From Diplocarpon mali (lineage: Eukaryota > Ascomycota > Leotiomycetes > Helotiales > Drepanopezizaceae), in NCBI GenBank assembly GCA_024741835.1, contig JAENRP010000101.1, forward strand, positions 1 through 64,000: a stretch of 64,000 bases of DNA. The letters run 5' to 3'. The notes under the pieces were generated by a model. It did no database searches. It was not told the origin of the DNA and saw only the letters and a list, made by a program, of their open reading frames with translations. Shown piece after piece: positions 12,663 through 35,453 of the stretch. The position numbers and the translations under genes were made by a program. Position 1 is the first letter of the stretch. The number at the start of each line of letters is the position of its first letter.

Positions 12663-15526
12663 ATGGCGCATGTTCTAGAGCTTGGAGCGTTGACAGATGA
12701 GCTTGTAACGTTAATCACATCCATATCAGCAGAGGTAATTGTTCTCTGTTCAGGGACTTCCATTCGTAGTCATAATAGCCGTTCTCCTCGACCTTCGCTG
12801 ACGTGCGACAGACGGATCCTTCAAGATATAGCGCACATCGAGAAAGTGCGCTCCGAGCTTTGCGGCTACAAAATCACCCCCGCACAAACCAGTTCGATGT
12901 CACCAGACAACTCGGCGGTCTGGAAGAAAAGTTCCGAGTATACAATGAAGATTCATTGGCAGATGCACTAAGGGAACGTCTAGACAGAATAGCAGCTTTG
13001 GATGTGAAATGGACGCCAGATATATTGCAGTTGCTCCTTGAGCTGTCAGACCAACCTGTATCAAAATCAAAACTGAAGGATCTCGACAGGCTCAAGGATT
13101 TAGAACAGGACACAAGGCTCGCCTTGAAGTGGCAGGATCTTGTTGCGGAGGATCCGCTGTTAAGAGAAAGGAGTGTCTGGCAAAATGTTGACTTTGGCGC
13201 AGAAGAATCGGATGGCGAGGATGGTTTCGAAGACTCTCGGTCAGATCTATCTAGAACCACGGAGGACACTACAAGATCAAGTGTATACGACAAGTACACC
13301 TCACGGCCGGAGTACGCAGTTGACACGGCCAGTATTCATGAATTGAGCGCTCTCCGTGATCAACAGTTCTGGCAGAAGACGCCCAATGCATACGGAGTGC
13401 CGCTGGAAACAGTGAAGAAACCAATCACTGAGCTTCAAGCTATCCGGGAAGTGCTGTTTATGCTCGGGGGACTTCCGACATCTTTATTCGAGAGCGATGT
13501 GGATGATCCAACAACCATCCGACCGTCCAAGGGATACTCTCTGAAGCATGCATCTGCAGATGCGTTCTTGAAGCTTGCCAAATCATTTGCCGATAATGGC
13601 TCGTCTCTTAACCGTATAAGATCGTGGGTCAAGATTCCTCAGCCTAACCCTTTAATTCAGGGTTTCCAAAGTGCTTTGCTTCGTCGAATCATCGACTTTG
13701 AAGCCCGTTTATCTGGGATTCAACAGCGGCTGGTATCGCCCACAGAAGACATTATTATTAGTCTACTGGCTGTCCAAGCAGAGCTAGCTACTCATATCCT
13801 TCCCCTAGTTCGACTTTCTGAGATCACTAGAAAACTTGAGGCCGAGCCATACGCACACGCATTCCGATATCTGGAACTTCTGTACGACGAAGCTTGTACA
13901 TCCCAGATGGGTGGAGATGATGACATGTACGCATTTATGGGCCGCGTATTCTTTGACTGTTTTCGTATATACCTCCGGCCAATGCGGCTCTGGATGGAAG
14001 AAGGGGAATTGGCCAAAGATGATAATGTGTTCTTCGTATCTGAAATATCTGGAGGCGCGGACTTGAAATCGTTATGGGAATCGCGGTTCAAGATCCGGAA
14101 AACGCAAAATGGCTTACTCCATGCGCCCAGATTTCTCCAGGCCGCTGCCAACAAGATTTTCAACACAGGCAAAAGTGTCGTGGTTCTTAAACATCTCAAC
14201 CAATACGACTCAATGAGATCTACTGGAGGTGCTTCTGAGCCGGTGTTGGATTTCGATGCCGTTTGCAACCCCGCAGATCAACTTGCTACTTTCCCGGAAA
14301 TATTTGATGTCGCATTTGACGCTTGGGTTCAGAGCAAGCACCACCATGCATCTTCTATGCTGCGAAAGACGTTGTTTGACTCTTGCGGTCTGCATACTGC
14401 ACTCGATGCCCTATCTCATATCTACTTCATGGCGGATGGCATAACGGCTTCGGCCTTCACCAACACTATCTTCGACAAACTAGACACACTCAACACATCC
14501 TGGAACGATCAATTCACTCTCACCGAGCTTTCTCGAAGTACCTTCGGATCCATACAGTCAATAAATCCGGATCGGTTGCGGACGAGAATCTTGGCAATGC
14601 CTCGCAAGCACTGCGACGTCTCGAGCTGTCGGAGGACAGTAAAAGTCCTCGCTGTTGTGGAATTTAGATACCATCTTTCCTGGCCAATTCAAATCATACT
14701 CACGCCGGCCACGATCCCATCATATAAACGAATCTTCACATTCCTCCTGCAAGTTCGACGGACCTCCCATATCCTTTCACGGCAGCGATTGATCAACGAT
14801 GGGCTTACAACCAACAGCAGCTCTGACGAGCGAGCACTATATTACTCGCTAAGAACTGCGCTCATTTGGTTCACCCAGAGTTTATACTACTACCTCACAT
14901 CACTCGTCCTGGAACCCTCATCGCAGAGAATGCGAGCAGAGCTCAAAGAAGCCGAAGACGTCGATGCTATGATATCAGTTCACTCTCGATATGTCAAAAA
15001 CGTTCTTGACCAGGCACTTCTCGGCAGCAAGTTAGAGCTCATCCACAAAACAATTTTGAAGATTCTCGACCTTGGCATCAAGCTCGAGGATGCGCAATCA
15101 GCCAACGCGGTTGCTGATCGAGTGGCCCTCGAGCAGCAACAAGAGATGATGGATCTCTCTTTGGCCAGTCTGGGACTGCAGACACCGAGACGGCAGACGA
15201 AGCAACTCATGCGGGTACCTAAATCGGCCAGCAAAAATACCTGCTCGAGCGCGGACGAGGACGAGGATGTAGACGTCGACCTGAGTATCTTGTCTTCGGC
15301 CGCAGGTGACCAAAAGGAGGAGTCGTATGTGGAGAAACTCAGGCAGATGAAGGCTGACTTCGACAGGCTTGCGAGATTCGTCGCTAGTGGATTGAAGGGG
15401 GTCGCTAGAGCCGGTGCCGGTGACGAGGCCAGGCGCTGGGAGGCTTTGGGTGAGATCTTTGAGTCTGGACTGGGGACGGGGACGGGGATGGGGATGGGGA
15501 TGGGGAATCGAAGGGATGGCATTTAG
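12663..15526 (+). CDS. Gamma-tubulin complex component, GCP5-like
   Basis: Model: exons 12663-12734 and 12812-15526, 928 aa. The 77-nt intron starts GTAATT and ends CGACAG, phase 0, and adds a 24-residue N-terminus starting M-A-H-V-L-E-L-G-A-L. The protein belongs to the Spc97/Spc98 (GCP) family. A conserved N-terminal block V-L-F-M-L-G-G-L-P-T-S lies near residue 235. The C-terminal gamma-tubulin-binding region includes W-P-I-Q-I-I-L-T (~647) and I-F-T-F-L-L-Q-V-R-R. The L-G-G-L-P-T-S block fits GCP5/Mod21 better than GCP2 or GCP3; GCP6 is less likely. It would act in the gamma-tubulin ring complex at spindle pole bodies and septa. The extreme C-terminus (G-T-G-T-G-M-G-M-G-M-G) is encoded by a G-rich simple repeat at about 15475-15506 and may vary in length. 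Confidence 0.85.
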
Positions 15527-18790: not shown

Positions 18791-20782
18791 ATGGAGAAAA
18801 TCACCGACAAAATCGCTGCCCTGCCCCCGGGCTCCTCCTACTTCTCCCTTGAGTTCTTCCCGCCCAAGACAACAATGGGCTCCTCGAACTTGCGCGCTCG
18901 GCTCGACCGCATGTCGCGCGCCCTTCGCCCTCTCTTCGTAACAGTCACCTGGGGCGCCGGCGGCTCCACAGCTACCAAGTCTCTCGAGCTCGCGGAGCTG
19001 TGCCAACGCGAGCTCGGCCTCACCACCTGCCTCCATCTGACCTGCACGAACATGAGCCGGGCCTTGGTTGACCAGGCTTTGGAAGATGCGAAGGCACTAG
19101 GGATTCGGAATATCCTGGCTCTGAGGGGCGATCCGCCGCGCAGCGAGGAATATCGGGAGCCAGATGAGAACGGTCAGAGTGCGCAGGCCATGGAGGAGGA
19201 GTTTGAGTGGGCCGAAGACCTGGTGCGGTACATCCGCAAGCAGTACGGCGGCTACTTTTGCATTGGCGTGGCGGCATATCCGGAGGGCCATGCGGATGAG
19301 AGTGATCCCAACGGCCAGAGCTTAGAGCACGACTTGCCGTACCTGGTGGGCAAGGTTGCGGCGGGGGCGGACTTCATCATGACGCAGTTGTTTTTCGATG
19401 TGGATGCGTATGATGGGTTCGAAAAGCGTCTGAGGGAGCACGAGAGTGGCGTCTTCACGGATATGCCGATTATCCCTGGCATGATGCCCATACAGAGCTA
19501 TCAGATGATCAAGCGGACTGCAAAGCTGAGCCATGCGAGGATGCCGGCCAACGTCATCTCCAGGCTGGACGAGGTCAAGGGCGATGATGAGATGGTCAAG
19601 AAGGTCGGAGTAGATGTGGTGAGCGAGATTGTCGCGCATATCCAGAAGAAAGCCGCGCCTGGACCGAGAGGGTTCCATTTCTATACTCTCAATCTGGAGA
19701 AAGCCGTCGCGTTCATTCTGGAGCGGACGCATCTCATTCCCTCGCTGCCACTGGCCTCCGAGTCTGCGATTCTGGATGTCCCATCGCCCCTGGAATCTGT
19801 GCAGCTAAACGGCTCCTCTCATACACGGCCCTCCCGCCGCCACAGCTCTATAGGTTCCGATCCTCATAATCGCGTTATAATAAGCGGCCCCAAGACCTCC
19901 AACCCCGACCGCGAAACCACGGCTTTGGAAGCCGCCATCCCCGCCGAGCCTGTCAACACTCGCGCGAACACGCTCGCCATCTCCGAAGGCGAAGGTAGTC
20001 TCGGCCGCGAAGCAACGTGGGACGATTTCCCGAACGGCCGCTGGGGAGACGCCCGCTCGCCTGCTTACGGCGAAATAGACGGCTACGGCGTCAGCCTCCA
20101 CATGTCCGTCGCCCAAGCCCTCAAGCTCTGGAACCACCCTCTCTCCTCAGCAGATATCACCTCTCTCTTCATCCGCCACATAGAGGGCTCTTTACCCGCC
20201 ATTCCATGGAGCGAAGAAGGCCTCAACGAGGAAAGCAACACGATCAAATCACAGCTCCTGACACTCAACCAGAAGGGCTGGTGGAGCGTCGCTTCCCAGC
20301 CCGCAGTTAACGGCGTGACGTCCTCCGACCCCATTTTCGGCTGGGGTCCTAAGAACGGGTTCGTATTTCAGAAAGCGTTCGTGGAGATCTTCATCCCATC
20401 TTCAGAATGGGTATCCCTCCGTGCCAAGCTCGCCTCCGCCGCCATCGCGCCTAATGTTTCGTGGTACGCATCTAATGCCTCGGGCACATTCCTGTCCTCT
20501 TCCCCGAACTCATCAGAGGGTAATAGCGGCAGCACGAACGCCGTGACGTGGGGCGCCTTCCCCGGCAAGGAAATCATCACGCCGACCATCATCGAAGAGG
20601 TGAGTTTCCGCGCTTGGGCTGAGGAGGCATTTGGGATCTGGGGCGAGTGGGGGCGGGTCTATCCACCAAGGAGTGCATCGAAGAAGTGCATCGATGAAGT
20701 GGCGGCTGACGTATGGCTGGTGAATGTTATCCATCATGGGTATGTGGAAAAAGAGGGCCTGTGGGAGTTGTTACTCGGATGA
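18791..20782 (+). CDS. MET12: Methylenetetrahydrofolate reductase, MET12 type
   Basis: A single uninterrupted reading frame of 663 aa. The N-terminal ~300 residues are the MTHFR TIM barrel, with E-F-F-P-P-K-T, V-T-W-G-A-G-G-S-T, L-T-C-T-N-M, L-A-L-R-G-D-P-P, G-V-A-A-Y-P-E-G-H and T-Q-L-F-F-D-V. The C-terminal half is the eukaryotic regulatory (AdoMet-responsive) domain. The enzyme reduces 5,10-methylene-THF to 5-methyl-THF with FAD and NAD(P)H, feeding methionine synthesis in the cytosol. Details such as P-L-F-V-T-V-T-W-G and A-A-Y-P-E-G-H match yeast Met12 better than Met13, and the length (Met12 ~657) agrees. In yeast Met12 is the minor isozyme, so a second MTHFR gene is expected elsewhere. 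A linker at about 335-400 is Ser-rich and poorly conserved. Confidence 0.93.
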   Translation: MEKITDKIAALPPGSSYFSLEFFPPKTTMGSSNLRARLDRMSRALRPLFVTVTWGAGGSTATKSLELAELCQRELGLTTCLHLTCTNMSRALVDQALEDAKALGIRNILALRGDPPRSEEYREPDENGQSAQAMEEEFEWAEDLVRYIRKQYGGYFCIGVAAYPEGHADESDPNGQSLEHDLPYLVGKVAAGADFIMTQLFFDVDAYDGFEKRLREHESGVFTDMPIIPGMMPIQSYQMIKRTAKLSHARMPANVISRLDEVKGDDEMVKKVGVDVVSEIVAHIQKKAAPGPRGFHFYTLNLEKAVAFILERTHLIPSLPLASESAILDVPSPLESVQLNGSSHTRPSRRHSSIGSDPHNRVIISGPKTSNPDRETTALEAAIPAEPVNTRANTLAISEGEGSLGREATWDDFPNGRWGDARSPAYGEIDGYGVSLHMSVAQALKLWNHPLSSADITSLFIRHIEGSLPAIPWSEEGLNEESNTIKSQLLTLNQKGWWSVASQPAVNGVTSSDPIFGWGPKNGFVFQKAFVEIFIPSSEWVSLRAKLASAAIAPNVSWYASNASGTFLSSSPNSSEGNSGSTNAVTWGAFPGKEIITPTIIEEVSFRAWAEEAFGIWGEWGRVYPPRSASKKCIDEVAADVWLVNVIHHGYVEKEGLWELLLG

Positions 20783-22504: not shown

Positions 22505-25500
22505 TTAAACATCCTCGTTGTCGTAGTCGTGGAACTCTTGCTCTTCGTCCTCGTCGAAGCCGTCGTTGGTGCCGTGACCGCGAACAGCGTAGCTCTTGCG
22601 GTTGGGGCCGGTGGAGCGGAGGCTGCTATAGCCGTGACCCTGGGTGAAGGTAAGCTTGCTATCTGTCTCTTGTTCTCGTTGAGAAGAGTTATTGGGGGAT
22701 CTGCGAGGGTTGGGTTTTGTTTTGTTTTGGGGAAGTGCTTACATCAGCGGGAATCAGACCAGCGTGCATGTCATCATCCGATTCCTCATTGTAGTTTTCG
22801 ACCTTGACCGCAGCGCTGCGCTTGGGTGTAGTCTTGGTGACTCGACCTCCCTTGACCTTGTTCAAAGGGGTCTTATTCTTGGAAGGGGTCCCGGCCATGC
22901 TCTCATCGTCTTCGCCACCGTCAGCCGGAAACTCCTTCTTCACCTTCTGCTTGATGTTAGCGCATGTCCACGAAGTCCAAGACGCTGAAAAGAGAGCATG
23001 GAAAAAGAAAGAGAGGCGAAATGAGGAACTTTCCTTGGTGGGAGTCATCTTCACAGCCTTCTTAGCTGAGCCACCATCTGAAATAACATCGTTAGTCGTC
23101 CGCTGCCAATTTCGATGCTTCACGCGCTTAAAGTAGGTGGAGACATCTTTACCTGTGACGCTATCGCCAGATTGACGGGCAATAGCTGTAGAAGTCGTTA
23201 GCGTGAAATCTTTCAGAGAAGTAGCGGTTGATGACAGGGAAGACGGAAGGAAACACGGTATGAGATGGTGTGACGAGAGGGAGTTCAAGCAGGCTGTTGG
23301 GGGTGAAGAGCTGGCTACCAGCATTCATCGCAGCGGCCTCCTTCTTTATCGGTCGGAAGACGTGCTGCAACGCAAAAGTAGTGGTGCCATCAGCCAAGCG
23401 CAGGGCGATATCTGTAGAACCATTAATCCCATGACCATCGGGAATATTATCAAACCTGCTGTACTGAGCGGTCTGTGGCGCAGAGATAATAGGGAAGAGA
23501 AGCATCAGAGGGAAGCTGTGTACATCCACCAGCTCGCTTGGAGCGCATGGCCTCTGCTTCCTTGATCGGCCGAAACCAATGTTCCAGAGCAGAGCGCGTG
23601 CTACCGTCGTCGAGATACCGGCTGATCTCGAGATGGAATTTCAAGAGATGATCAGGCTTGCTTAGCAGTGCTGTGCTGTGCTGTGCTGTGGTCCATCGAC
23701 TAAAGCAAAGCGACAAAGGAAACAAACAAGTTGTATAAGAATCATCTGAGCCTTCAGGAGGGTTGTCTTGGATCTTGCGCTTCGCAGCCGGCTTCCCATT
23801 TGGATCACAATCGCATGGGGTGTTCTTGGGATCGCGGCCGGTGGCCAGAGCCTTCTGGAGGTTTCGGGCTCCTGCCTTGAAACGACGAAACTGCCACTTC
23901 AACGCATCTTTGGTAACGTCACTACCAAGATGAAGGGCCATGGCTAGAATGAGATTAACATCATATTCCACAACAACCATCGTTTGCTGAGTGTAAGGAA
24001 GGAAAATGTGCCGAGAAGGAATTATAGACAATTGCGACGTAGTTCCTGCCACCACTAGTGGTCTTTTCACCTCCTCCAATATGAAGGATCCGAAGAATTC
24101 AGTTAGACTCGTAGCAATCAGGTTGACGCTTGACGTCGGTCTGGGTAGAGCGGATCTTGAACTCGATACCATCCTTGGTACTATATTGTGCAGAGTATGG
24201 ATTCACGACAGTTTGCAAACCATTACAAGGTATAATAGCCTGCCAGTGAAGAGACGCCACGTTATAGACATAAGAATTCAAGTTCTGACGCTGGGCTTTA
24301 CCGCCTTTGACAGTGCCGACGTCGAGATCCTTGGGATCTTTGCCAGCTGCAAGCATCGCAAGCTGCATCTGGCCAACGGCCTTGATGCTGCCACCAATCT
24401 GATGTCGTAGGGCCTTAGAGGTGATATCGCTACCCATGATACGAGCTGTCTCTAGATAACAGAATCAATAGCTGCCCTAGAACAATATCATAGACAGCGA
24501 CGAAGGAAACGCTGCCTGACTGCGGGAACCGGTCTTGCTGCCTTTTGCGCTGTACAGACTCCCCAGATCAGAGATCTTTTGCATCTTCGCCAGCGGATCT
24601 CATCTCCAGCATCCGATTGCCAATGGGCCGAATACGATCTGTGAACTGAAACTTGAGACCGTTGCGAGTAACGTCGCTGCCCATGAGGCTCGCTATCTCT
24701 GCAGTGATCATCACCAATGTGCTCAGCTTGCGTCATCGAACACCAGAAGAAGAAATAACGGAAGGCTCTAACAATTGCAAGTCTCGTTCAGAATTGGGGG
24801 TTGGACATCCTTGCAGTCAATAGTACCCTTGTGATGTACTTGACTGTAGTCGCGAACTGGAAGCGCGCACTGCCAGCGGCGACATCGCTTCCAACTAAGA
24901 CGCAACCTCTCATAGACGATCAATATGCATATCTTGAAAACGAAACCGAATGCAAGGTTGAAAAGCACCTGTCTGAGCCTTGAAAGGTTTGCCACTCAGA
25001 GCCGTGAGAGCGACATGTTTGCCACTCTTGCTAGCAGTGCCCTTGACATCCACACCGAAATTAAGATCCATAGGATTACCCTAGGATCGAGCACAGTCCT
25101 TGACAGGCTTGAAATAAGGAGTGACGTTGCGTTGGACACCCATGCGAAGTGTAGCATTCTTCATGGTACTGTCATAGTGCTTGAGGATCTCTGTTGCTAA
25201 TTAATCAACGGCACAGATTCACAGAAGCGAGCAATGTAAATGACATGATGAAATCGTGGAAAATTGCGCAACATTGTACCCTTTCCGCTCTTCGCATCGC
25301 TGGCTTCGAGATTGAGCGTCAGATCCTTGGGATCTCCGCCGGCCTGAACACACTTTCGGACAGCCTTAACATTATCTCTGTAATAGCGAGAGTAGTGCTT
25401 TTGAAGAGCCCCAGCAGTAGTATCACTACCAAAGTGCTTGGCCAAGTCTGCAAACGTCAATGTGTGAACGAGCAGCGAGCAAGTAAATAAACAAAAGGAA

Positions 25501-28166
25501 AAGGTAAGATGTGCTTAGGCAGCGACATTAAGTGTGCCTGACCCTTGCCGCCATTCTTTTGATCTTCAATCAGCTTCAGATCCTTGCAATCACCACCAGA
25601 GTCGGCGAAATCCTTGACACGCTTGGCCATAGGACTGAACTGACGACGGACAGCAATACTCAGCGCATTCGAGGTCACGTCGCTGCCGAAGTATTTGACC
25701 ATCTCTGTTGGAGTCAATAAGCAGCTAGTGAGATACATAGACAGCTGTGTATTGAACAGAAGAAAAGCGTAAAGTATGTGTGGGAAAAACAAGAGGCGTT
25801 TACTCTTTCCGCCCTTGCCTCTGGCTTGGCTCTCGACTTCACTGAACGGAAGCAGATCCTTCGGATCACCCCCTGCATCAGCAAATTCTCGAACCGTCTT
25901 TCCATAAGGATTGTAGTAGCGAGACATAGCGATCTGGATCCCCTTTGCGGTGGTGTCGCTGCCGAAGTATTTGACCAGCACTACTATTATCAATACTCGG
26001 TCTGGACAAGAGGAAGTGTCTGCTTAAGTGCTTGTGGTTGTGGTTTTGTGGGAGTGAGAATAAAGAGATTGACCTTGCCCCTGCCGATTTCGCCACTGAT
26101 GGGCACAGTTCTGGCTGGATCTTCTCCACGCGTGAGAGCGCCGAGGATCAGCTTAGAAGCCGGCCTGATATTGCGCGTAAAGTGCATAGAGAGCGCATGG
26201 CCTTTCAGTCCATCGCCGAAGCACTTCGCAGTTTCTGTGGGACCTCTATCAATACTGTCATCTGGAGGAAAAGAAAATGAGAATGAGAAAGTGCTGTGTT
26301 GAGAGCTCATGTCTGACATTTGCCTCCAGCGATCTTCACAATCCCGGATAGCTGGACTTCTTCGGGGTCGCCTCCGACCGCCAGCGTATCGAGCACCAAT
26401 TTGACGTCGTTCTTGACGGTTCTGTGGTAAAAGTTGCGAATGGCTTTTCCGTTGACGGATTTGCCGTAGCAACGCGCTACTTCTGGAAAGGCATCAATAA
26501 CAGCAGGCTCTGGACAATGGAAACAGGCTTAGAAATGGGAGAACGCGGGATTATCGGGCTCTTTCCTTCTACCAAGATAGTAGTATCCTTGGGATCTTGG
26601 TCTTATTCGACCGTTACCTTCAAGAGCTTGATATTAGGTGAGACCTTCATATTGTAACGTTTTTGAAGTCCAGTCTTGGTGCAGTGGCAACCATAACATC
26701 GGGCTACCTCTTTGGAACGTCAATCTTGGCCAAGAACGGAAAACTCTCAAACCGCAGTACAATCTTGTGATATGCTTGGTGCAAAACATCAAAACATCTA
26801 ACCCTTTCCGCTCTTGCCATCTCGGACGTTCTCGAACAAGGTGATTTCCTTCGGATCAACTCCTTGTTCAAAAGCCGCCTGGAGCCGCGTGGCGTTTGGC
26901 TTGATGTCGCGAGTGAAGTGCGCAGCAAGGCCGGACTTTGTACAATGCGATCCGAAGCGATTTGCGATGTCTGATAACAATCAATAAAAGCTTGAGGAAA
27001 GAAGCGCATTCAGCAATCATAAAGAAAAGGCAAGTATGAAGAGTGTAGAGCCTCGTAACACAGAAGTACCATTCTTCTCACTAAACCAGAGCTGGTCAAC
27101 AGCTAGGTCTTTGGGTCCGCCTGAAGCCACGGAAGCCTTGAGCTTCTTGAGAACAGGTGTGACTTGGCGGTCGCAAGCATCACGAACAGCCCCAGGAGTT
27201 GTGTCGGAACCATAGCAAGTTGCAATGTCCGAATAATATCAATTATCACCATAGGAAACAAACTTATCCACCAACGCAAACATAAGGGATAAGTGCCGCG
27301 CGCAAATGTGCGAGAACACCTTGTACCTTTCTGGACACCCCAGAGGCTTCCTAGGGTGAGATCTTTTGGATCGCCTCCCTTTGCCAGACAATCCTTGATC
27401 ATCTTAGTAGCAGGTCGAATCTGGCTGTTAATGGCGTGGGAGATCGCGCTGATGCTTGCATCTGAGCCGAAGCAGCAGGAGATGCCTGCAACGAGATCAA
27501 TTTTGGACAGAAAGAAATATGCTTGTGTTGCAGGTATGGGGATGGATGTGCCTGACCAGATCCGGAATTGACTTGGTCCAGTCCAATAGGCAGAGTAATA
27601 GGGTCAACGCCCTTCTCCACCGCATCGTTGACCAGCTTAGCATCAACCTTGATACGACGGAATCGATTCTCTATAGCAGATTTGGTACAGTCGCCACCAA
27701 ACCTTGTCGATATGTCTGGCGAACATCAACAAATGGAGGAAAACATGAAAACAAAGGCAATGTGCGGACTGAAATGCGCGAAAATATCATGAGCTACCTG
27801 GGGTCTTGGACTTGACAGCCAGCATGCTATCGACCAACGGCACTTGGAAGGGGTCGAGACCAGCTTCGACCGCGGCTGCGATGGCCTCGGCGTTCTTGTT
27901 GATGATTTTCATGCGGTCCCAGACAGACTTGTACTTGGCTCCATCTCCGTAGAAACGACCGACATCTAAACAAGATATATTATCAGGTACCACCAGAAAA
28001 AGCCCCGACTGAATGAAAGAGAAGATTGTATATGACGCGACTGCGTTGATGGAGGATTGAAATTCTCTCAGAACATACCGTCATAGTTCAGCTTGAGCTG
28101 GGGATGGGCTGCGATGATTGCGGACAGAAGCCGGACGGAACTCTCGTAGGATTTCCAATTCGGCAT
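22505..28166 (-). CDS. Tandem-exon gene: ~20 repeats of a ~53-aa FGSD/GGDPKDL domain
   Basis: Supported exons (minus): 28166-28079, 27965-27798, 27715-27557, 27485-27327, 26970-26803, 26482-26318, 25980-25804, 25704-25543, 25447-25280, 24451-24290, 23943-23530, 23411-23319, 23185-23153, 23077-22743 and 22639-22505. Joined they give 2586 nt, 861 aa, with no stop. Exon 1 starts M-P-N-W-K-S-Y-E-S-S-V-R-L-L. Each repeat exon then encodes a helical unit: hydrophobic start, F-G-S-D-x-T, A-L, R-x-x-x-P, G-G-D-P-K-D-L, and a Gly-Lys-rich end. The tail is Lys/Pro-rich then acidic, ending F-H-D-Y-D-N-E-D-V, which suggests a nuclear protein. I recall related Pezizomycotina proteins with one or two such units; this is from memory. 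The unit resembles a small helix-turn-helix, so DNA or chromatin binding is inference. Seven further units in the introns are broken and left out. The 23077-22743 exon may contain a small in-frame intron. Confidence 0.8.
24060..24208 (-). pseudogene. Repeat unit with lost acceptor and stop
   Basis: The unit aligns as V-V-N-P-Y-S ... T-K-D-G-I-E-F-K-I-R. It fits the period exactly, 243 bp from the unit before and 265 bp to the next. The expected CAG acceptor reads CTG. A TGA at 24101-24099 ends the frame after ~36 codons, and the G-G-D-P-K-D-L part is not recognisable. Confidence 0.65.
24520..24698 (-). pseudogene. Repeat unit with TGA and frameshift after KDL
   Basis: The first 42 codons are well preserved (E-I-A-S-L-M-G-S-D-V-T, then D-A-K-D-L). 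TGA follows in frame at 24570-24568. The normal end (L-G-S-L-Y-S-A-K-G-S-K-T) is still readable in a shifted frame, so a small indel next to the motif broke the unit. Confidence 0.75.
24785..24908 (-). pseudogene. Strongly decayed repeat unit
   Basis: After an AG the frame opens E-V-A-S and meets TAG, then G-S-D-V-A-A-G is readable only in another frame, and D-C-K-D-V in a third. At least one stop and two indels are present, and part of the unit is deleted. The distance to the next unit is the shortest in the array (210 bp). Confidence 0.7.
24969..25190 (-). pseudogene. Repeat unit with in-frame TAG
   Basis: The unit reads E-I-L-K-H-Y-D-S-T-M in frame after ACAG. TAG at 25083-25081 falls inside the position of the G-G-D-P-K-D-L motif, and the frame continues recognisably after it (N-P-M-D-L). 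The unit is longer than the others (222 nt to a GTGCTT donor) and keeps phase 1 at both borders. Confidence 0.8.
26074..26234 (-). pseudogene. Repeat unit with phase error
   Basis: The frame is open (T-A-K-C-F-G-D-G-L-K) but the exon is 161 nt, because GTCAAT follows G-G-C-A-A-G directly and one G is missing. Its donor is therefore phase 0 while the acceptor is phase 1. In addition, the upstream unit (26482-26318) ends in T instead of G, so joining it here makes TAA. Joining that T to the next unit at 25980 gives a sense codon (TTG). Confidence 0.7.
26561..26709 (-). pseudogene. Repeat unit with in-frame stop and lost donor
   Basis: The unit starts normally after AAAG with E-V-A-R-C-Y-G-C-H-C-T-K. 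A TAA at 26605-26603 lies in frame just before D-Q-D-P-K-D. At the expected exon end G-G-A-A-A-G is followed by AGCC, not GT. Inclusion would end the protein early, so it can only be skipped or used as a poison exon. Confidence 0.8.
27070..27228 (-). pseudogene. Repeat unit with lost splice acceptor
   Basis: The exon-like frame is open for 53 codons (D-I-A-T-C-Y-G-S-D-T-T) and ends with a normal GTACTT donor. The two bases before it, where every working unit has AG, read GG (after tattattc). The core motif is also shortened to G-G-P-K-D-L. Without a usable acceptor this unit should be skipped. Skipping keeps the frame because both borders are phase 1. Confidence 0.75.
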
Positions 28167-31109: not shown

Positions 31110-34100
31110 ATGTTCCTCTCCATCACAGGAGATTCTTGCTTCACTTCTGCAGAGGCAAAGAAGCTTAAGAAGAACATCAACGCGACTGATGCTGGTGCTT
31201 GTGTGACGAGAGTCCGAGGGTATTGGGTTCACTATGTCCATTTCAAAGATTCAGCTGCTCAGGTAAGAGATTGCTTGTCCAGGGCGTATCTATGGCATTG
31301 CCGCTATGTTTCTGCGGAGATTCGGCAAGTCGCGATGCTGAAATAGGTACCAGAACACCCAAGACCAAGTTAGACAGTTACTTCCAGGCGCGGAAGAGTC
31401 CAGCGAGGTCCTCAAAAGTCCCGGCAGCTTGACCCAACTCTACCACATCACACCGCGCAACATCTCGCCTTGGAGTTCCAAGGCTACCAGCATCGCCTAC
31501 GTATGTGGACTGAAATCGGCATTGCAGCGGATCGAGCGCGGGCGGGTCATCCTGTTGAACTTCGAACAAGGTGGAAAAACTGCAGATGCGAACACAGTGG
31601 ATGTTCCATTCAGGGATCAGCTGTATGACAGGATGACGGAGAAATTTGAGCTTTTCGAACCGGATATGAATGCGATGTTTGCAGAGCATCAGCCATTTCC
31701 ATTGGAAGTTATTGCTTTGGGAGAGGAGGAGTCTGGCAGATTGGATGTCTTGAAAGCATATAATAAGGTGCGAGGGCTTTCACTGGATCAACCTGAGATG
31801 GAATACCTCGTTCAAGCTTGTAAGACTTTCAATTGTCATTTTAGCTGTCCCAGAAAACGTGGAGGGGTCGTATAGAAACCACTTTGCGTTCCAAACCAAG
31901 AAAGTATGCTAATTTCCATAGATAAACAACTTGGAAGAGATCCCCACGACATTGAACTGTTCATGTTTGCACAAGTCAACTCCGAGCATTGCCGACACAA
32001 GCAGTTTAATGCAAACTGGACAATCAATGGAATCCCGATGGGGAGATCCTTGTTCGAAATGATCCGGAACACACATCAAGAGAGCCCGAAATACACGGTT
32101 TCGGCATATAGCGATAATGCTGCCGTACTAGAGGGTGAAACAGCCAGCTTCTGGGCTCCGGAATATTCTACTGGAAGTTGGAGACAAATCAAGGAGAAGG
32201 TTCACTTTCTTATCAAGGTATAGGCTGAATCACTGAGAGTTGAAGGGATGGAAAGTTGCTGATTCGTGCTCAGGTCGAGACACACAACCACCCGACAGCC
32301 ATATCTCCCTTCCCAGGAGCGGCGACTGGCTCTGGTGGTGAGATTAGAGATGAAGGTGCCGTCGGCCGAGGCTCAACACCCAAAGCTGGACTTTGCGGAT
32401 TCTGGGTCTCCGATCTCCTGATTCCTGATCATAAACAACCTTGGGAGATAGATTTCGGCAAGCCATCACATTACGCCAGCAGTCTGGACATCATGTTAGA
32501 GGCACCAATCGGTAGTGCTGCATTTAATAACGAATTTGGCCGGCCATGTCTGACTGGCTGCTTCCGCACGCTTCTGGCTAGTGTAGATACTGGAGTCGAT
32601 GGCCGCGATATTCGGGGATATCACAAGCCAATCATGGTTGCAGGCGGGGTGGGCACTGTCAGGCCTCAACACGCCCTCAAAAACGGACGAGATGTTAAGG
32701 AAGAAGCTCATATCATTGTTCTCGGTGGACCAGCCATGCTCATCGGTCTCGGAGGTGGTGCAGCATCAAGCAATGCCTCGGGAGAATCCTCTATGGAGCT
32801 AGACTTCGACAGTGTTCAGCGTGGAAATCCTGAAATGGAACGCCGCGCCCAGATGGTCATCAATACTTGCGTGGCTCTAGGAGACAACAATCCCATCGCG
32901 TTTATCCACGACGTTGGGGCTGGTGGTCTCTCTAATGCTTTGCCGGAATTGGTCAAGGATGCCGGTTTCGGGGGTAGATTCGAATTGCGACAAATCGAAA
33001 ATGCAGATAAGAGTATGAGCCCCCTACAAATATGGTGTTGCGAGGCCCAGGAACGATATGTTATAATCGTCAACAAGGAAAATTTGAATAGATTCGTTAG
33101 CATCGCCAACCGAGAGCGTTGTGGGTTTTCCGACGTCGGTACAGTGATGACCATGGATTCCAACGGTCATGGCAGTCTTGTCTTAACGGATCGGGAGTCA
33201 AAGAAGTACCCAAGGCCTATTGACATGCCAATGTCGCTCCTCTTTCCCCAGGGCAGAAAGCTGGACCGAAATGTCAAGTCAAGCCAGCCTATCCTGACAT
33301 CATTTGACGCCCGGCAGGTTCTCATCGACGCGTACCCACAATTCCCCGAGCACGACCTTCTCAGAAAGGCTGTTGAAAGAGTCTTCCGTCTACCAGCAGT
33401 TGGCTCCAAGTCCTTCTTGATTACGATTGGAGACCGTACCGTGGGAGGAATGACGGTTAGAGATCAGATGGTTGGCCCTTGGCAAACACCAGTTGCAGAC
33501 GTTGCTGTTACCGTGACTGCTTTGAACATCGGCGACAAGATCAAGACCGGTGAGGCTATGAGCATGGGCGACAAGCCTACTCTTGCTTTGATATCGCCAG
33601 CTGCATCGGCGAGAATGGCTGTTGCAGAGAGTCTGTTGAACCTGGCTGCTGCGCACATTCTCCGTGCTAATGAAGGTGACTTGGCCCGTGTCAAATTATC
33701 TGCAAACTGGATGGCTGCCGTCAATCATCCTGGGGAGGGTGCTGCCCTTTATGAAGCGGTACATGCTATTGGTATGGACTTGTGCCCCGCACTAGGTGTC
33801 AGTATACCTGTCGGCAAAGATTCGATGTCGATGAAGGCATCTTGGAAGGATCAAAAGACAGGCGAAGCCAAGAGTGTTACAGCTCCCATGACGGTTGTCA
33901 TCTCAGCTTTCGCCCCCGTCGCAAATGTTCGAAATACGTGGACTCCTGCCCTTCGGAGACTTGAGGATGTCGGAGAAACTGTTCTGATGTACGTTGACCT
34001 TGCTCAAGGCCACAAAGCTCTAGGAGGTTCGGCACTTGCCCAGACCTTCGGTCAGCTCGGAAATGAGGTCCCAGATGTTAGAGATGCTGATCTGATCCGT

Positions 34101-35453
34101 GACTACTTCGATGCTATTGTGCAAATGCACGAGACTGGCGTTGTCCTCGCTTACCACGATATCTCAGATGGTGGATTGATCACTACTGTCGCCGAGATGA
34201 TGTTTGCCGGCCGATGCGGTGCCGAAATTGTTATCGATAGTCTCACGAGCAGCTCATCTTTAGAAGACACTCTGAAATCCCTCTTTAATGAGGAGCTGGG
34301 TGCAGTATTTCAAGTGCGGAAGTCGGACGAGACAAGGTTTAAGAGTTGCTTCTCTACTTGTGGTCCCCCACCAGGTATGGTTCGCAAAATTGGCCGTGTT
34401 CCTATAGCATCAAAGCAAGAACTCTCCGTTCGGTATGGCCAGAAATCAATCCTACACATGCGACGCTCAGATATGCAGCAAATATGGGCTCACACATCCT
34501 ATCAAATGCAACGCATTCGAGACAATCTTGATTGCGCAGAATCAGAGTTCGAGACCATCAGAGACGACCGAGATCCTGGTCTGCATTACAGACTCTCCTT
34601 TGACCCTAAGGAGAATATCCTTCCACTCACATCGACAATCACGTCAGTCTTCTCTAAAATCCCTCGTGTCGCCATTCTCAGAGAACAAGGTGTCAACGGC
34701 CATGCTGAAATGGCATTCGCGTTCAAAGCCGCGGGATTCGACCCTATCGACGTCCATATGACGGATATAATATCTGGTCGTACCCTTACGGACTTCGTTG
34801 GTATCGCAGCCTGTGGCGGGTTTTCCTACGGAGACGTCCTTGGCGCAGGACAAGGATGGGCCAAATCCATCCTCATGCACGAGGAGAATGCACGCCCTGA
34901 ATTCCAGAAGTTCTTCGCTCGACCTGATACTTTCGCTCTGGGTGTCTGCAACGGATGCCAAATGCTCTCCCGTATTGCTGAACTCGTTCCCGGTGCCCAG
35001 CACTGGCCCACCTTCCTCCGAAACGAGAGTGAACAATTCGAGGCCCGCGTCTCAATGGTCAAGATCCAGGATAACAAGAAGAGCCCTTCTGTCTTCCTGC
35101 ACGGCATGGACGGCTCCTCGCTGCCTATCGTCGTCTCGCACGGCGAAGGCCGCGCTGCGTTCAAGAATACGTCAAATCTAGAATTCATGAATGAACATGG
35201 TCTCATCCCAATCCGGTATACCAATAACTCGGGCAACGTCACTACCCGATACCCGTACAATCCAAACGGTAGTCCGGAGGGCATAGCTGGTGTTAGGAGT
35301 CTGGATGGAAGAGTCCTGGCTATGATGCCACATCCTGAGAGGACGATTTTGGCGGATGTGGGTTCATACGTGCCCAAGCAATTGGTGGATCAGTGGGGTG
35401 AGTTTGGGCCGTGGGTGCGGATGTTTAAGAGTGCGCGGAGATGGGTCGGATAG
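31110..35453 (+). CDS. ADE6: Phosphoribosylformylglycinamidine synthase
   Basis: Model: exons 31110-31262, 31354-31819, 31922-32217 and 32274-35453, 1364 aa, close to yeast Ade6 (1358). Introns: GTAAGA...CCAG, GTAAGA...ATAG, GTATAG...TCAG. Single-chain FGAM synthase: N-terminal domain, two AIR-synthase-like halves ([10 protein letters not shown] and V-E-T-H-N-H-P-T near the substrate site; [19 protein letters not shown]) and a C-terminal class I glutamine amidotransferase. The amidotransferase has nucleophile Cys1197 in L-G-V-C-N-G-C-Q-M and the triad His/Glu in P-H-P-E-R. It makes FGAM from FGAR, glutamine and ATP, the fourth step of purine synthesis, in the cytosol. No defect seen. Confidence 0.97.

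Follow-up and report, generated by a model that had tools for sequence, protein, structure and literature searches.

To our knowledge, exon-by-exon growth of repeats has been described mostly in animals. Animal tandem-exon arrays such as Dscam (cf. PMC4835542) are rows of exons that have the same phase at either border, and the gene described here is like them in this. It lies in a window of 64,000 nucleotides from Diplocarpon mali (contig JAENRP010000101.1, assembly GCA_024741835.1) where its minus-strand model begins with an ATG at 28166 and closes with a stop codon whose last base is 22505; a single start exon is followed by 20 unit exons in tandem and then by three tail exons. The array is real, large and class-wide in its distribution; it is ordered and old, with partial decay in this species, and a diversity of isoforms is unproven. 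A fungal class shows, in this family, exon-by-exon repeat growth at large scale within one gene. The related proteins are labeled hypothetical or uncharacterized in most records. Among open-licence titles and abstract openings, a scope that does not imply absence from print, no account of the family or of a comparable fungal exon array was found; nor was a published name, and "Leotiomycete MPNWK repeat-protein family" is our own label.

The exons and splice sites of the gene model were set down after all three frames had been read. Exon 1 (28079-28166; ATG, MPNWKSYESSVRLLSAI..) encodes MPNWKSYESSVRLLSAIIAAHPQLKLNYD, which includes the first helix (helix 1) of the N-terminal domain; its donor, GTATGT, is in phase 1. 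Unit start-to-start spacing ranges from 208 to 315 bases with a mean of 252 over the 20 units counted. Fourteen of the 20 units have an open frame, a length divisible by three and borders that read as phase 1, and six (units 4, 6, 12, 13, 14 and 16) are damaged. Unit comparison together with the exon model places units 2 (27557-27715), 3 (27327-27485), 5 (26803-26970) and 15 (24302-24451) as well as the short units 18 (23530-23628) and 19 (23319-23411). The ends of units 7 (26324-26482) and 8 (26079-26234) have GC donors or shifted borders. A single border between open units, that of unit 17 (23752-23943; model and unit comparison) with unit 18, lacks a usable in-phase donor and acceptor; the frame runs open across it, and the two units may be a single exon. 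When joined, the exons called intact give 2556 nt free of stops. The preliminary description had put the array at about 19 to 20 tandem units some 250 bp apart, with phase-1 borders on both sides of the intact ones and a stop-free join of 2586 nt, and all of this is borne out here, the two lengths reflecting different border choices. The motifs it ascribed to each unit are present in part of the array only: G-S-D-x-T occurs in seven of the 20 units (4, 9, 10, 11, 14, 15 and 17) and the exact G-G-D-P-K-D-L in three (3, 9 and 11).

A profile built from 425 units, all of them from other species in the final alignment, matched 17 units in the window at E<0.01; every one of these matches is on the minus strand, between 27960 and 23320. 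Units 12 (E 0.24) and 20 (E 0.95) scored below this threshold and unit 16 was missed. None of 20 control windows, shuffled base by base within 500-base blocks, contained a match at E<0.01, and the single weak match elsewhere in the window, at 53746-53693 with E 0.05, is close to what chance would give. Three protein queries against the organism's own genome (49.4 Mb, 676 contigs), of which only the best candidates were scored, found no second locus. That the array is one gene is well supported by its relatives. Tandem Repeats Finder detected no array in the window because the units are too diverged at the DNA level; an Rfam scan returned nothing, and NCBIfam nothing of note for four proteins. 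The neighbors recognized by Pfam are ordinary genes, all on the plus strand: a gamma-tubulin complex component (12803-15523), methylenetetrahydrofolate reductase (18791-20779) and the FGAR amidotransferase of purine synthesis (32256-35450).

Relatives were gathered by searching three times, with about 8,000 candidates scored each time; the third search was limited to proteins of about 200 to 630 residues and is represented by the best 120 of its 126 matches. At least 164 proteins are listed, and these were split by organism name, with seven set aside. The preliminary description had proposed counting units across relatives with a profile, and the count separates two groups among the listed matches: 96 Sordariomycete proteins with one (3 proteins), two (66) or three (27) units, and 61 Leotiomycete proteins with 1 to 19. 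The first search, which reached proteins of about 1,490 residues, listed 18, all from genera placed in Leotiomycetes. The family start MPNWK[ST]YE..RLLSA with helix 1 is present in exon 1, the family core, a tandem of about 40 residues with I-A-x-x-F-G-S-D-x-T..R-x-I-K..G-x-D-P, is present in the window gene, and the family tail TPSK..LNKVKxGRVxK is found as TPSK..LNKVKGGRV.K in tail exon C2 (22743-22984), which is followed by C3 with the stop codon (22505-22639). These comparisons of sequence support a class-wide family, not an array peculiar to one species. The earlier view that its scale is unusual for a fungus stands, although the locus is not a one-off. Relatives with one to three units make the growth of the exon array traceable across genera.

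Searched by pattern, the conserved start occurs in 51 of the 61 Leotiomycete proteins, the tail in 29 and both in 21; the other 40 are without one or both, so that many of these models are partial or split. Each of the 21 with both ends is annotated as one protein, the unit counts ranging from 1 to 19, and with the homology these proteins uphold the proposal of one gene of symmetric exons. The alternative is that the array represents several small separate genes, or a pseudogene array that is wholly dead. Six of its units are indeed damaged, and in three relatives the array is split between consecutively named neighboring models (P0038/P0046, P0020/P0050 and P0022/P0052). However, each pair has the start on its first model and the tail on its second, and the window array itself has a single start exon and a single tail. 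For eight of the 14 open units, moreover, a reciprocal best unit is present in D. rosae, with identities of 79-94% except for unit 3 (66%); unit 1 (27798-27965) reaches 94% and unit 11 (25280-25447) 89%. We regard separate genes or a dead array as highly improbable.

In 65 annotated proteins, gaps of more than 30 residues fall at 37 of 369 unit junctions, and most of them resemble translated introns, a few being degenerate units instead (in P0001, part of unit 4). Insertions of more than eight residues inside unit cores number 0 of 434 in the same proteins, a count that would be biased if a unit cut by an intron escaped the profile. Because long insertions fall at junctions and none in cores, the intron borders seem to be common to the whole family and class, as judged from the relatives' annotated proteins.

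The units themselves are individually recognizable across genera. Units 7 and 8 are 79% and 81% identical to their Cadophora counterparts, whereas within the window array the best-scoring unit matches them at only 28% and 35%. Reciprocal best units were colinear at p<0.05 in 11 of 15 chosen proteins, among them the D. rosae models (10 and 7 pairs, tau 1.00), Cadophora (11 pairs, tau 0.96), Phialocephala (10 pairs, tau 0.96) and Hyaloscypha (8 pairs, tau 1.00). The four non-significant tests were those of Rhynchosporium (tau 0.50, p 0.11), Venustampulla (p 0.083), Botrytis hyacinthi (p 0.083) and Monilinia (p 0.33). Since most units match same-place units in other genera better than their array neighbors, the array appears, from these alignments, to be an ordered set of old individual units with some gain and loss, not a series of fresh copies. 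D. rosae is represented by two gene models, P0003 and P0008, which lie on different contigs and keep differing sets of units.

DNA is shared between units in short stretches only, the longest being 23 bases between units 9 (25804-25980) and 10 (25543-25704). Unit 9 is an exception to the general pattern in being about as close to units 10 and 11 as to any relative, and it has no reciprocal match in the D. rosae models. The starts of units 9 and 10 (25955-25976 and 25679-25700, minus strand) share 22-23 identical bases, though protein identity is 48%, possibly the result of a recent copy or of gene conversion. Of the 23 model introns, 11 have ATTGAY within their final 45 nt, vs about 0.5 expected from the whole window, an expectation that ignores the higher A+T content of introns; the motif is perhaps a trace of introns copied along with their exons. 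BLAST among the array introns found no mutual similarity at E<0.01.

Among the six damaged units, unit 4 (27070-27228) retains an open frame and has lost its acceptor AG, and unit 6 (26561-26709; model and profile) has an in-frame stop. Farther on, unit 12 (24969-25190) contains an in-frame stop, unit 13 (24810-24906; model and profile) has broken frames, unit 14 (24542-24698) carries a frameshift and unit 16 (24070-24180) is a relic seen in the exon model. A public protein of Diplocarpon coronariae (P0001, 593 residues) ends exactly at the unit 12 stop of the window. It is identical to the window in exon 1, units 1 to 3, 5, 7 and 9 to 11 and the part of unit 12 before the stop; it agrees in 45 of 51 residues of unit 8 and 31 of 52 of unit 4, and unit 6 is absent from it. 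On this agreement of most 5' exons, the window belongs to Diplocarpon coronariae or to something very close to it. P0001 probably derives from another assembly than the window (a contig of 2.47 Mb vs one of 136,893 bases), and several assemblies of Diplocarpon coronariae are described in the excerpted text of PMC11527701. A slip in a single assembly is unlikely at the unit 12 stop because P0001, probably from another one, ends there too.

This coincidence is an argument for a truncated gene, in which transcripts would include unit 12, translation would halt at its stop and the 3' half would be decaying. The damage to units 12, 13, 14 and 16 also speaks for truncation, and the D. rosae protein models retain units 12 to 14. 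Against it, the 992 nt of model exon that comprise units 15, 17 to 20 and the tail exons C1 to C3 contain no in-frame stop or frameshift, and the family tail is retained. The clustering of damage suggests continued selection downstream of the dead units, and we lean towards skipping of these units and continued production of the tail. Unit death may, though, be recent. We judge truncation possible, but less likely than not. The six damaged units bear on what Diplocarpon coronariae can still make, and, lying between live ones, they would allow a direct test of exon death where the exons are symmetric in phase.

The predicted model of P0011, which is of middling confidence (mean pLDDT 67), has three helices in its N-terminal 63 residues, and its later units each comprise a short helix followed by one of about 24 residues. 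When profiles are compared, the unit aligns with helices 2 and 3 of the domain found at the N-terminus of short relatives (E 7.9e-16). On this evidence, the Myb/HTH-like domain has its helix 1 from exon 1, and the repeated exon encodes helices 2 and 3 only. The fold prediction for P0001 (pLDDT 53) was too weak for use, and a fold search with the P0011 model gave no significant match. Sequence matches in the PDB were weak and to engineered or unrelated chains only (best E 0.0096), and were set aside.

Weak resemblance, below threshold, was seen to Myb_DNA-bind_8 (PF22980) and HTH_WhiA (PF02650). The Pfam cut-off for both is 27 bits and is not reached by any bit score shown, nor did any other Pfam model pass its own cut-off in scans of the window protein and of relatives. 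In the window protein there was no match to PF22980 at E<=10, and PF02650 scored 16.1 bits. The best bit scores shown for relatives were 12.7 for PF22980 and 21.5 for PF02650. In a 34-member comparison, for most of which E-values only are available, five were at E<0.1 for PF22980 (best E 0.0066) and nine for PF02650; PF02650 is also precomputed on four Xylariales-type relatives. Thirteen of the 14 intact units carry a positive net charge and unit 20 is neutral. From sequence and predicted structure, we infer that the protein is a multi-HTH binder of nucleic acid, either DNA or RNA, with a nuclear or nucleic-acid role. A separate cluster in the same genome (G000:C6:170593-187603, L020 to L024) has five Myb_DNA-bind_8 matches within 17 kb, four of which are over, or counted over, the cut-off.

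The reading we consider probable is that of an uncharacterized ascomycete family of Myb/HTH-like repeats, in which tandem-duplicated half-domain exons form one gene with old units. Exon 1 would encode helix 1, and unit 1 would complete one three-helix domain by adding helices 2 and 3. The helix 2+3 exon, together with its intron, would have been duplicated in tandem, above all in Leotiomycetes, each later unit being a half-domain on its own phase-1 exon. As both borders are in phase 1, addition, loss or skipping of a unit would not shift the frame. Units would have been gained and lost over time, each individually conserved, and the unit exons would be joined into one mRNA from which the damaged units are presumably skipped in Diplocarpon coronariae. 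The basic units would probably bind nucleic acid as an array with multiple points of contact.

The end of the array offers one further feature. Unit 20 is modeled as its first part only (23153-23185), and the next stretch is also coding in many relatives. The 75 nt between unit 20 and tail exon C1 (23030-23077), at 23153-23077 on the minus strand, have good splice signals (GTAAAG, CTAAC and TTTCAG), and the same 75 nt are open in frame and a multiple of three. By a strict pattern, the corresponding stretch (GKAVSTYFERARKDP..) is coding in 13 of the 30 proteins that bear the tail, and in more by eye, the pattern being a rough one that missed P0012, P0048 and P0050, which plainly carry the segment. 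P0002, P0009 and P0030 are annotated without the stretch and are cut at the identical place. The 75 nt may thus be an intron that serves as coding sequence whenever it is retained. An extended version of the proposal would make the protein a modular reader of nucleic acid with one half-HTH of conserved identity per exon, whose reach is tuned by exon birth, death and skipping and whose last unit is switched by this intron; we consider it unlikely.

The preliminary description also suggested that the array yields many isoforms, and this part finds no support. Were the locus a Dscam-like generator of protein variants by alternative inclusion of units, exons symmetric in phase 1 would suit it, as would donors of which several are weak or GC. 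A crude count of complementary intron pairs gave 58, just above all of 20 shuffled controls (24-56), which preserve base composition and not neighboring bases. On the other hand, no individual intron exceeds the shuffles in complementary partners (6 vs 3-6) and no single docking intron stood out, so that the pair count is ambiguous as a sign of docking sites. Both the identity and the order of units are kept between genera, which speaks against such a generator. The introns are short, with a median of 98 nt in the model, and for this reason splicing here is probably by intron definition. Where splicing is by intron definition, exon skipping is generally rare. In Cladosporium fulvum, a plant-pathogenic ascomycete, intron retention accounts for about 71% of alternative splicing events according to the excerpted text of PMC11694984, a predominance that likewise speaks against alternative unit inclusion. 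We therefore judge an isoform generator of this kind quite improbable.

Among known systems, the closest are uncharacterized proteins of Helotiales, for example those of Cadophora sp. M221 (IFR05_005410) and Phialocephala subalpina (PAC_06636). Both have the start, the tail, the unit and the colinear order of the window gene; they contain 16 and 19 units by profile, respectively, and the window gene 14 intact units of 20. Anthostomella pinea Uu.00g091860, a short Xylariales relative, shares the N-terminal domain and the unit. Short relatives of the Xylariales type differ in extent, the 96 Sordariomycete proteins counted having one to three units. The window gene is unlike Dscam in that it shows no evidence for mutually exclusive choice of exons, in that its units are half-domains, and in that it is fungal.
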